37,806 bases of DNA. Source: Priapulus caudatus (taxonomy: Eukaryota > Priapulida > Priapulimorpha > Priapulimorphida > Priapulidae). Positions 17,701 through 23,700 of the stretch are shown in pieces; positions within the stretch are counted from its first letter, which is position 1, and every line of letters begins with the position of its first letter. The stretch lies in assembly GCF_000485595.1 (NCBI RefSeq), contig NW_014577123.1:558981-596786 (forward strand). The letters run 5' to 3'. The position numbers and the translations under genes were made by a program. Below the pieces are notes generated by a model. It searched no databases. It saw only the letters and a program-made list of their open reading frames with translations, and had not been told where the DNA came from.

Positions 17701-20700
17701 CTTCAAGCGACGAAAAATTGGGCCCAAGATTATGTGAATTTTTCATCGTTTGTGATGAAGCGTGTGCTTGTCGCGTGTGTGCACGCAAGTGTATCTACGT
17801 TAATGCACGTATATGGTTTAGCAGCAATAATACTTTCTAACGTTAGCACGGATGCAAGATTGTTTGCTCGATAGATGGTTTTTGTGACAGCAGCTAAAGT
17901 TAACATCAATGTTTTGTCCCAGGATGATTTCAAGACGCAAGTGCCGTTTCACATCGACAATGAAAGTTTGCACAGTTTCCCCTGTTTTCAGCTCAAACTC
18001 TATTTCCCACCCTTCCTCACTAGTATGGTGAAAATAGCTTTAAAGGCCTTTTCACTCCAACTCAGGTACGACCTAAATTATTCACGCTCCGGTTTTATCT
18101 CCCAGCGAACATGATTGTGGAAGTGATTTACGGGAGGGATACGCGTGTCTACGACGCGCCTCACGTGCACGCACCAGATTGGTCCTCAGTGGTGTGCTTC
18201 CCAGATGGCGTTGTCATACCAACATGTGAGCGACGCGTCATCGCCGTCTGCGTCAGCGGCCGGTCTTGTCGAGCAAGTTGGTCGACGTGCGAGCCCAGCG
18301 TCTCGACAGCCTCCAGGTCTTAACGAGGCAGTTTTTTGAAGCCATGCGTTTCGCGGTGAGAGTCAGGCACACCTGGTGAGCGGAACAGAACGCCGTCCCT
18401 CTCCTCCCAACCTGCCACCACCTAGCCCCGCCGGTAGTTACCGTGACGGTGGCTAGCAGACCCTCAGGTACGTTCCCCTCCTTCCCTCTCCTCCCAACCT
18501 GCCACCACCTAGCCCCGCCGGTAGTTACCGTGACGGTGGCTAGCAGACCCTCAGGTACGTTCCCCTCCTTCCCTCTCCTCCCAACCTGCCACCACCTAGC
18601 CCCGCCGGTAGTTACCGTGACGGTGGCTAGCAGACCCTCAGGTACGTTCCCCTCCTTCCCTCTCCTCCCAACCTGCCACCACCTAGCCCCGCCGGTACTT
18701 ACCGTGACGGTGGCTAGCAGACCCTCAGGTACGTTCGCGACGATGATGCCGATCAGGAAGATGACGGCGTCGAGCCAGAAGTAGCCGAGGATGAAGGCGA
18801 TGACAAAGAAGCTGACGCCGAGGAAGACGGCGACGCCCGTGATCACGTGGATGAAATGCGCGATCTCCTTGGCGATGGGCGTGTCGCCGGTGTCGAGGCC
18901 CGAGGCGAGGTTAGCGATACGGCCCATCACGGTGCGGTCGCCCGTGCTGATGACGACGCCCGTCGCCGAACCTGCACGCCCGCACGCGCGCGAAAAACAA
19001 GAGCACGCGTAAATTTCATTTTAGATTATCAACGATAATAATAGAAACAACAGTTTCATTCATCACTCTAAAATGATTAAATGATATTTTTAATGGTTAT
19101 TATTTGTAACAATTTTTAATAATTCTTATTCTTGATTTTTTCATTTTTTATTCATATAAAAAATTCCATTTATCAATTGTCATTTATTATGATGCAAAAC
19201 TTGAGCGGCGACTCCTCACACAAGGCAGGGTGTCTTTTAAGACTTGGGTACACTGGAACATTTTTGGGGAAATCAGGTAAATTTACCTATCCACCTGAAA
19301 GAGATTCATTTTGATATTCTTGCTATGGCAGTCAATTTAGACCAGTTTGTATACGATACCACATGTCTGCATGCCGAAAACAGAGACTTTGCGGTACTTT
19401 GTTGCCGAGCAATATTTTTTAGCATGTCCTATTACAACACTGATTGATCACGACAGGCAGATAGGTAGACGATGTTGTTACGGTTCAGGGGTGTCTTCAT
19501 GCGAGGGAAACCAGCCATAAATGTCCCAGTATTCCAGCCTTCAAAAAATACTGCTGCCAAGGGAGTGAAGTTACCATTGGCATGCAACATGAGCTTAGAA
19601 CTGATCGACCAGACAAGATTCATATTTCATATTTCATCTCTCAGTCGAAAGTTAATGTGTTCGTAAATTAGCAATTTTGAATAATCTTCATGCGTGCGCT
19701 AGGTGAAATGAGGTAAATAAGCAAAAACGATAATTTATCAAAAGAATTTTGATACAGACAGGCTATCGCAAGTAAACCTTGCCTAAACGCAGTGAAATGC
19801 CTAAATCTAATAATTCCACCTAGTAATAAATGTAGAGCTTAACTGTGACTGTAGGCTTATATATACATATATAATGGTGGTCACGAAATACAGCACAGCA
19901 TATATACATCATGCCAAGAAAGCCAACATTCAACATTCAATTGTGCAATATTTAATATCTCACTTCCCCCACCAGTCTGTCTGAGTGATGTTTGTCAGCC
20001 AATCAGCCAGCCAGCCAGCCAGCCAACCAGCTAGCCAGCCAGCCAGCCAACCAACTAGCCAGCCAGCCAGCCAGCTAGTCAGCCAGCCAGTCCGCCCGCC
20101 CGCCCGCCCGCCCGCCCATTTCCCTCTCTGCAACACAAGACATTAAAAATAATCCCCCGTAATAAGGCAAATAAATTGCGCATTGCATGTACCTTCTACC
20201 GCATTGGTAGAAAAGAACGCAATGTTGCGAGTTTCCAACGGGTTATCGTTTGTTAACTCGGGCGTGCGGCTCTGCGCTTCAGATTCACCGGTTAGCGAGC
20301 TATTGTCAACCTGTTTCAGAAAAACATAGGAGCAAAACAAGGAGAAAGATTAGTCGACTACCACCACAACCGAGCCATAGCGGCCATGCACTATGAAAGC
20401 GTTACCGCATGCAAGACCATGCCTCGTGCAAAACCACACAGCATGCGAAAGCACCTGACCAGCTCAACCACGCGCACGTGCGATGCAGCGGCCACGCCGT
20501 GCGTGATGGTGAGAGATGAATGGTGGCTGTGTGAAACACGTTCACCCACGTCGTCCACATCTCCATCATCACGCACACGCCGAGACTGCGGTACATCGCA
20601 CCCACCCCTGGTCATCTGTTAGGCGCGTGAGGGCGAGAGAGAGAGAGAGGGGGGGGGGAAGGAAAGGAAGGAAAGAGAGAAAGAGAGAGAGAGAGAAAGA

Positions 20701-23700
20701 GGGGAAGGAGAGAGAGGGGGAATGCACGGTGCAGGGTGCATGCACGACTGAGAGCTCCAGTGCCGACCGTGAACAAGTGTTTCTCCGCATGTCTTTGGAA
20801 CTACACCGGCCACATTTTTCCACACCCCTCCCACCCAATTCCGCCCCCAACCGCCCGTCTCACCCGACACCAGTGAGGCGGTGACCGAAAAAACGTAAAG
20901 ACTCGCGGAGAAACAATCGAAGGGTCGACAGGAGGCTCCCCACGCACACCGCGTCGGCGCCGCGGCACGAACCTTCGACAGCGTTCGTCGAGAAGAAGGC
21001 TATGTTTCGCGTTTCGAGCGGATTATCGCTAGTGCTCTCCGGCGTGCGCGACTGCGCTTCCGACTCCCCCGTCAGAGACGAGTTGTCCACCTGGCGAGCG
21101 TAAAGCAGTCGCTACACTCGTCGGCACATGCCGGCTCAAACGCAGCCGGTTAGCACAGCGGAATTGCAGTAGATTGGTCAGTTACCACAGCAAAATGGTA
21201 GTAGATTGGTCAGTTACCACAGCAAAATGGGAGTGGATTGGTCAGTTACCACAGCAAAATGGGAGTGGATTGGTCAGTTACCACAGCAAAATGGGAGTGG
21301 ATTGGTCAGTTACCAAAGAAGAGTATGGCGAGTAACCACAGCAACACTCCACAGTCACGTGGAGGGGTGTCTATTGGTGAATACCTGGAAAGTGTGCATG
21401 CTAGTTCTCTGCGACAGAGTGCAGATTGGCGCCCACCCTTTTCTGCTACCACCAGACACATGCGTCAATCCCAACTGGAGAACTAGTACTGGACTGTAAC
21501 CATTTTTGACCCCCACAAACCAGAAATGTTTTTGGTAATAAAATCACTACAGTGTAGCCTTATAACGCGATGGTTGAGGTCCATAAAATGTCATCGCGAA
21601 AAAAAGCGGCATTGTGCTAAATCGGGGTTATATATACGTGGCTATATAAGTGCAAAAAAAAGTGCATCACGTTATATCTGAATTTGTGTTAAATCGGGGC
21701 GCGTAAAATCGGGGTTCCACTGTATTAGTAAGATGTCTTCATCTATGTCTTCCTATTTCACCAGCCAGTTAAAGCATTCCGCTATTCGCTCTTCAAATAT
21801 TGGAGCTTCCCCAACTCTCGTTTTTAATAAACCATTTTATGCAACTGCCTCCCCACAACACCTCAGCTAGAATAGTCACGACCTTAACACATATTTACTT
21901 GGGTTTACAGCAAAGCAAATAACGTAGATATTATGTGCCCAGTGCATATCTCAGCAAACTGATACCAAAGGCAAATCAGACTTAAATGTTGTTATCTATC
22001 AATCAGTCAATACCTATACATTTGATATTTTCAATGAGACGGTATGAACCTATGCTTGGGTAGAGGTTAAATTAAAGGCACTAAGAAAGGAATTTCCATC
22101 AAACAATTCTGCAATTCTTTCTCATCTGCAATTACACATAACCGTCACATTACTAAAAAATAATAAATGAAGGGGTTAAGAACACGTTTGCAGGCATCAA
22201 ACCCCAACCCCACTCACCTCAACTCATCCTCTCTTTTCTTGATTAATTTCCCTGCACTAAGACCCGATCTGACCACCGCTCCACACATCGCGCACGAGGA
22301 TTCCCCCTTCCCCACCCCGCCCCGAGACCCTCGCCTGTGTTAGTGGCAAATCTACGGGGATGGGAGGAGCGGGAACGATGCGAGCAGGAACGGTGCAACG
22401 CGCGCGCGACCCCGACCTTGAAGCCGTGTGCGACGATGATGCGCACGTCGGCAGGGACGCGATCGCCAAACTTCATCTCGACGATGTCCCCGACGACGAG
22501 CTCCTCCGCACGAATAGTCTTCTTGCCTCCGTTCCGCAGCAGCAGCGCGTGCTGGAAACGAGAGAAGAGAACGTGAGTCGTCATAGCAACGAGAGAATGA
22601 TTGAATTTTAGGCTCAGGTTTGAAGTTTCGAATTTTCACTTTCCAGTTTCCACACGCGCGAATCCGTTTGCAGCCGGATCTCGTATATTGATGGTGATTG
22701 ATTCCGACAAAACTATCTTTGTGTCAAAATATTGCTAGACAAATTTGGAAACATCTTCAGCGTGATGCCGTACTCATATCATAATGCAAAACTTGCAATA
22801 AAATTGCACTGCCATACGGGCTCCTACTTACTGTTTTCGGCGAGTTATTATGTCTGCACTTTTAAAGTGCAAACGTACTAGCAGCCTATGTGCTTTCAGA
22901 CAGCGACCATGCATGCAGTACATGTGGGCAAGTTAGTTTGCAACTGACAAAACTATGCTGAAAACTCGCTGGACACGTTTCCGATTGCCTAAGAGTCTAA
23001 TCTATTTATAGAACAATGAACGTGTTTATTCACCTGCGGGACCAAATCCTTAAACGATTCCATGATTTTCGAACTCTTCGCTTCTTGGTAATACGAGAAG
23101 CAACCTGTGACAACTACTACTGCCGTAAGTACGATACCTAAATAGAGCTGAAATGAGACAAAGTAATATATATTACTATTAGATAGGAATTTCACTCAAC
23201 AATGAGAAAATTGACACACGACTTTCCACGTTAAAATACAAGACGATTATATATGGAGATAATATCTTCAACAAAACAAAAATTAACGAAAGATATATCT
23301 GAGCATTGTCAACTAAATTCTTGGCCAATGACCTGAATTGGCCCAGCCGAGAGAGAAGCAGGTAAGGCCAACAAAAAAACTTTCTTTGGTTTTTACCCAT
23401 CTGACACACCGATAACGTTTTCCTTTGCTAGATAAAACAATTCTAGATAGATTACAGCCGCAATTGTTGCCGCAATTGTTGCAGCAATAATTGCTGCATT
23501 GACACAACAAAGAAAATGATGTCATAAAACGGTATCAATACAACTTTTCATAAAATTCTACTATTTATACTAAAATTTATTCACCCACTAATCTGCCATC
23601 TGCCAAAATGATAACAACAGGGGCAAAATCAGAATGTTTTTAAAGATAGATCTAGACCAAGCCCAACAATTTACACAAGAAAATTATTTCATGCCCTAAC

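Follow-up and report, generated by a model that had tools for sequence, protein, structure and literature searches.

Alternative exons in animal sodium pumps

The sodium pump (Na,K-ATPase) of animals is known to vary through extra genes, through alternative N termini and, in arthropods, through alternative exons near M6-M7. Here we describe a probable arrangement of the last kind at another site of the protein: an alpha subunit gene of the priapulid Priapulus caudatus holds two tandem versions of its exon 7, termed 7a and 7b. The gene lies on the minus strand of a 37,806-nucleotide (nt) stretch of contig NW_014577123.1, called the window below, whose numbering is used throughout. In the arthropods, according to one report, the barnacle gene carries exons 11a and 11b, Daphnia, Anopheles and Ixodes have between two and four copies, and Drosophila Atpalpha has four, which are equated with barnacle exon 11; of the two barnacle copies only 11b was seen in complementary DNA (PMC3793950). 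Ixodes exons 16 and 17, of 31 residues, are used one at a time as judged by reverse-transcription polymerase chain reaction in a second paper (PMC4748274). A third study masked two exons of insect ATPalpha1 as alternatively spliced, the passage giving no position for them (PMC6733596).

The priapulid pair resembles this arthropod cluster in belonging to the same gene family and in that a single internal exon is present in tandem copies that are nearly identical. For the barnacle (11b) as for the priapulid (7b), expression or a deposited sequence is seen for only one copy of the two. The difference is one of position. With the human sequence serving for numbering, 7a and 7b encode ATP1A1 residues 213-251, in the A domain, whereas we infer that barnacle exon 11 and Ixodes exons 16-17 correspond to the segment 817-847, which also has 31 residues. 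To compare known isoforms, 42 hand-picked proteins were arranged in 11 isoform groups, with no Drosophila protein among them and with three Schistocerca proteins left out as they come from three species. None of the 11 groups varies in the exon-7 peptide, while eight vary in the segment 810-857, their internal isoform differences falling at 817-847; the Cryptotermes, Pomacea and Scyliorhinus groups vary in neither. A segment of the 817-847 type is found by tblastn at one place only in the window, and 7a and 7b lie outside the arthropod cluster. Since a different exon is involved (213-251 versus 817-847), the priapulid pair is independent of that cluster. The initial annotation had pointed to alternative exons in the A domain of Drosophila Atpalpha as a possible parallel; this link is unsupported, as in the arthropod isoform groups compared the alternative peptide sits at 817-847. 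Homology with the Drosophila alternative exons is rejected directly for the arthropods compared, and for the fly, of which no protein was compared, only through PMC3793950. No A-domain exon pair in sodium pumps was found described in the open literature, which omits most subscription papers, and a literature search joining Priapulus caudatus with this enzyme found no paper.

Other sources of pump diversity are more distant. The vertebrate isoforms alpha1, alpha2 and alpha3 come from separate genes and differ at many more positions, whereas the priapulid versions come from one gene and differ at two residues. The loop that varies in the priapulid reportedly reads F-T-N in vertebrate alpha1, F-T-H in alpha2 and C-T-H in alpha3. 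In the squid, RNA editing of the Na,K-ATPase makes a small change in a single gene product that tunes turnover (PMC2990702); there single bases are edited, whereas in the priapulid pump an exon would be chosen. Arthropod N-terminal exons, such as the alternative 27-residue exon 2 of barnacle NAK1, also yield two pumps per gene, and the same barnacle report has their use varying by stage, tissue and salinity (PMC3793950). That variation, however, is by cassette inclusion or alternative start, and not by a duplicated exon as in the priapulid.

The two versions of exon 7

The identity of the host gene is clear from the spliced model built from the window. Exons 2-13 with 7b agree in every one of 609 residues with a deposited predicted P. 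caudatus protein, P0001 (962 residues; an entry with a single member sequence); the PDB structures matched best are of Na,K-ATPase alpha-1 (E of about 4e-106), and the Pfam domains above cut-off are PF00122, PF13246 and PF00690. These matches bear out the original assignment to a sodium pump. The catalytic motifs are in place, with TGES in both 7a and 7b and DKTG in exon 9. There is a second P. caudatus alpha protein, P0003, with 784 of 961 aligned residues identical.

Exons 7a and 7b form a tandem exon pair, being adjacent, homologous, equal in length and phase, and intact at their borders. The acceptor AG and donor GT are present in both (AG/GTG...GAAG/gttcgt in 7a, AG/GTT...GAAG/gtacat in 7b), both are entered in phase 0 from exon 6 and left in phase 1 towards exon 8, and the outer junction ends, 22417 for the end of exon 6 and 18971 for the start of exon 8, were verified in the spliced model. 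The two copies are identical at 85 of 118 nt. Their 33 differences, spread over 39 codons, fall 4, 4 and 25 times at the first, second and third codon position, so that 24 of 39 codons differ silently and 2 of 39 change the amino acid, leaving the peptides 94.9% identical. From 7a to 7b the two changes are Ser to Leu and Ser to Asn, and the loop reads PESTSDN in 7a and PELTNDN in 7b. Coordinates, lengths, borders, phases and codon counts are all exactly as initially annotated. No third copy was found in the window, where tblastn with both peptides matches strongly only at 7a and 7b; the next-best match has E 0.018 and 34% identity and lies on the opposite strand. Among the three introns flanking the pair, blastn similarity is limited to a single 11-nt inverted match (E 0.9).

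How old is the duplication? Among the codons that specify the same amino acid in both copies, 13 of 37 are identical, where a random draw from the gene's own codon usage gives 14.9; the silent divergence of 7a and 7b is therefore saturated. Estimates of silent divergence (dS) behave in the same manner: NG86 is undefined, LWL85 and YN00 give no value through saturation, and the maximum-likelihood estimate of about 5 is not meaningful as a number. Such saturation rules out that 7a and 7b are alleles or sequencing errors. The protein, in turn, has hardly moved. When 33 substitutions were placed at random in 7a (20,000 trials), the mean was 20.4 amino-acid changes and the lowest count 12, against the 2 observed, and a stop codon arose in 62% of the trials.

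Conservation was judged on 236 fetched pump proteins, the top matches of searches with the 7a model and thus a sample near the query rather than an animal-wide survey; two with a different motif were left aside and the remaining 234 align without insertions or deletions. Over these, 27 of the 39 exon-7 positions are at least 97% conserved, and 7a and 7b each match all 27. On this comparison 7a and 7b are evidently an old exon duplication in which selection has maintained both copies, and the long purifying selection on both that had been proposed at the outset agrees with the saturated silent sites and with the 27/27 conserved positions in each. Among the 236 fetched exon-7 peptides the smallest distance from 7a, 2 differences, belongs to P0001, whose peptide is that of 7b, the next best having 4; the two copies are therefore each other's nearest relatives in this set, rather than a mixture of two genes. 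A derivation of 7a from the second alpha gene is unsupported, given that over 39 positions the exon-7 peptide of P0003 has 6 mismatches with 7a (and 5 with 7b).

What could a difference of two residues do? The variable residues are ATP1A1 231 and 233, 9 and 11 residues past TGES. The Ser-Thr-Ser-Asp of 7a resembles a CK2 site, and the extra serine within S-T-S-D could be a candidate for control of that isoform by phosphorylation. In the calcium pump SERCA, the Val200 loop (Lys189-Lys205, 5-21 residues past TGES184) makes an ionic contact with the P domain that is crucial for formation of E2P (PMC5259720). It is on the P domain that this loop docks in the E2P state. By its position after TGES, the variable loop of 7a and 7b is likely the equivalent of this loop; because the variable residues would fall within it, exchange of 7a for 7b is likely to shift the E1P-E2P balance mildly. 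Both residues of 7a are found elsewhere: Ser occurs at 231 in 5 and at 233 in 32 of the 234 pumps. The two serines occur together in an alpha protein (P0121) of the goose barnacle Pollicipes pollicipes. Its loop, EAQSRSPESTSEN, comes close to that of 7a, and over 39 positions its exon-7 peptide shows 4 differences from 7a and 6 from 7b; convergence is a possible source of this likeness. As both residues are used in the pumps of other animals, 7a should yield a working pump.

Splicing of the pair and competing explanations

The reading frame constrains how the pair can be used. Joining 7a to 7b makes TGA the first full codon within 7b, and if both are skipped a stop follows after 14 new codons in exon 8. 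The frameshift predicted for double inclusion or skipping is thus confirmed, with a stop at once or after 14 codons, and the frame lock makes use of the exons one at a time, as proposed, the expected mode. The splice sites differ in quality. The acceptor of 7b has a pyrimidine run of 11 in its last 40 nt, 9 T between -23 and -4, a candidate branch point (yTnAy motif) 40 nt upstream and an AG-free zone of 45 nt up to the nearest upstream AG. In 7a the longest pyrimidine run over the same 40 nt is 4, there are 5 T between -23 and -4, and an AG lies 19 nt upstream. By these counts 7a has the poorer acceptor of the two, yet one inside the range of the constant exons, where runs of 3 (exons 4, 11 and 13) and 4 (exon 5), T counts of 4 and 3 (exons 8 and 12) and an AG at 19 nt (exon 3) are found; for this reason the acceptor is no sign that 7a is disused.

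We take 7a and 7b to be mutually exclusive exons, with 7b as the default and 7a as a regulated alternative, and hold this to be right with a probability of roughly 70%. The exon for the TGES loop and the loop that follows it would have been duplicated in tandem, and the copies would be used singly. Exon 7b would be the default, as the deposited model and its better acceptor suggest; this role is a guess drawn mainly from the deposited model. A splicing factor might help to select 7a in some tissue, stage or condition, and transcripts with both exons or neither would stop early and be removed by nonsense-mediated decay. The two resulting pumps, differing at 231 and 233, would be poised somewhat differently between E1P and E2P and hence differ mildly in apparent ion affinity or pump speed, and the 7a isoform may additionally be controllable by phosphorylation of its extra serine.

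Competing RNA structures were considered as a device for exclusivity. With whole introns shuffled (12 times each), the best duplex of intron 6 with the 7a-7b intron reached -68.3 kcal/mol against a shuffle mean of -54.3, and that of intron 6 with the 7b-8 intron -66.0 against -47.8 kcal/mol; the start of intron 6 outpaired 12 of 12 shuffles with each of these two later introns. The 7a-7b and 7b-8 introns paired at -59.0 kcal/mol (mean -53.2), a value equalled by at least one of the 12 shuffles. A GC-rich stretch of 60 nt follows exon 6, and unrelated GC-rich stretches of the window pair at -56.2 to -66.4 kcal/mol. When shuffling was confined to 60-nt blocks, the value for intron 6 and the 7a-7b intron was attained in 9 of 60 trials, or in 3 of 60 if the intron 6 stretch was kept, which is borderline, and that for intron 6 and the 7b-8 intron in 37 and 40 of 60, which is the chance level. 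Being borderline or at chance under local shuffles, such structures are not taken as evidence. An Rfam scan gave no match at gathering scores.

Several points weigh against exclusive use of 7a and 7b. Exon 7a is known from genomic sequence, with no transcript seen. When 4258 candidates of 335-1065 residues were searched with the 7a segment (4231 matches), no protein with 7a came out above P0001, which has 7b and matches at 95%; a protein with 7a would rank above P0001, and therefore none is among the best 120 of the 4231 matches. Nor does the exact 7a peptide occur in any of the 234 comparable fetched proteins, and no relative was found with the same pair. The 7a-7b intron, at 662 nt, is not too short for splicing, so there is no steric ground for exclusivity, and no RNA pairing that enforces it is demonstrated in intron 6, the 7a-7b intron or the 7b-8 intron. 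That 7b is the default is itself conjectural, as several constant-exon acceptors are no stronger than that of 7a. Finally, assembly faults mark this gene downstream of exon 8, where there is a 2.8-kb duplicate with frameshifts.

Some of these observations would fit another history, in which 7a, an alternative exon during most of its existence, is now left unspliced and 7b is the sole exon 7. The only deposited protein found for this gene uses 7b, no 7a protein stands above it among the best 120 matches of the 7a search, and the 7a acceptor is the weaker of the two. Yet the reading frame, acceptor and donor of 7a are all intact, other pumps share its residues, and equally poor acceptors are seen in several constant exons; with about 88 nonsynonymous sites and all 27 conserved positions kept, 7a could have been free of constraint for only a short time. 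We consider disuse of 7a unlikely. An assembly error, by which 7a or 7b came from another sodium-pump locus and was misjoined here, is less likely still. Possible join points exist in the low-complexity stretches at 20.67-20.72 kb, between the exons, and at 20.00-20.12 kb, beside them, and the same contig has the run of N at 15805-15814 and the error-rich 2.8-kb duplicate downstream. But there is no N between exons 6 and 8 and no frameshift in exons 2-8, and no donor locus is known, the exon-7 peptide of P0003 being different and no 7a protein having been found among the best 120 matches; a misjoin of 7a is unlikely for these reasons, and alleles or sequencing errors are excluded by the saturated silent sites. 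The pair might also matter by switching splicing from a productive to an unproductive form, both exons being joined in some cells so that the stop lowers pump output. The immediate stop on joining 7a to 7b would serve this end, and the exon 6 donor (AAG/gtcggg) scores lowest of the 13 exons with consensus weights. A stop may arise by chance in a frame-shifting duplicate, however, and such a switch needs no conserved 7a protein sequence, whereas that of 7a is conserved; this is the most improbable of the three explanations and can be given very little credence. We therefore retain mutually exclusive use of 7a and 7b as the preferred reading.

The surrounding locus and its meaning

The exons of the gene model and the introns around the pair are collected in Table 1. 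In the part of the gene that holds the pair, from exon 2 to exon 8, there is no N and no exon is frameshifted. Further downstream in the gene, about 2.8 kb comprising exons 9-12 and their introns occur twice, at 13340-15560 and 16140-18400, with a spacing of 2.80-2.82 kb. Most of the listed unbroken pieces are 93-100% identical and one 40-nt piece 83%; the upstream copy is frameshifted in its exons, the N run lies between the copies, and the duplicate looks like an error-rich gap fill. At 18396-18736 an 87-nt tandem array of 3.9 copies (99% identical) reiterates the 3' terminus of exon 8, donor included, and keeps the frame open. The 3' part of exon 12 is present in three copies (11214-11419, 13340-13441), two of them 104 nt apart, which are either real alternative 3' pieces or an assembly error. 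Frameshifted stretches in 7275-8816 (at 8.7 and 7.3-7.8 kb) match P0001 residues 607-864, which are intact in the deposited protein; either the window differs from the sequence annotated or the deposited model had been corrected. The N run, the 2.8-kb duplicate, the 87-nt array and these frameshifts are taken to be faults of assembly. At 2711-2905 a 65-nt unit stands three times in perfect tandem and overlaps the final coding part of the pump gene. On the plus strand, 29059-29466 encodes a C-terminal dimerisation fragment of a hAT transposase (PF05699, E 1.6e-11), adjoined at 29528-29838 by an inverted repeat with 89-nt arms that are 98% complementary.

Table 1. Exons of the P. caudatus sodium-pump gene model and introns flanking the exon 7 pair (window positions)
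Feature	Position	Strand	Length	Remark
Exon 2, constant	25870..25992	-	123 nt	spliced model
Exon 3, constant	25605..25664	-	60 nt	spliced model
Exon 4, constant	25139..25342	-	204 nt	spliced model
Exon 5, constant	23034..23147	-	114 nt	spliced model
Exon 6, constant	22417..22551	-	135 nt	donor AAG/gtcggg
Intron exon 6 to 7a	21091..22416	-	1326 nt	
Exon 7a	20973..21090	-	118 nt	39-residue peptide plus one base
Intron 7a to 7b	20311..20972	-	662 nt	
Exon 7b	20193..20310	-	118 nt	39-residue peptide plus one base; version in P0001
Intron 7b to exon 8	18972..20192	-	1221 nt	
Exon 8, constant	18703..18971	-	269 nt	spliced model
Exon 9, constant, intact copy	15361..15559	-		carries catalytic DKTG
Exon 10, constant, intact copy	14721..14832	-		spliced model
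Exon 11, constant, intact copy	14109..14241	-		spliced model
Exon 12, constant	13374..13566	-		spliced model
Exon 13, constant	10675..10842	-		spliced model

Taken to its full extent, the proposal is that a priapulid independently acquired exclusive exons at the actuator loop, and not at the M6-M7 site as in arthropods, which would retune the E1P-E2P poise, add a phosphorylatable serine to one of the two pumps and serve as a switch by stage or salinity; we offer this fuller version tentatively, as somewhat less probable than not. What would be new is the site in the protein and the phylum, for neither of which the literature searches found tandem alternative pump exons described. If both exons are used, one gene would give two pumps that are two amino acids apart near the catalytic loop, and a second site in this highly conserved membrane protein would have undergone exon duplication independently. 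Because silent sites are saturated while the protein is frozen, the two copies have long been useful, and for that reason the role of 7a is directly testable. With only two residues exchanged, the pair would then be a natural minimal experiment on the role of loop docking on the P domain.

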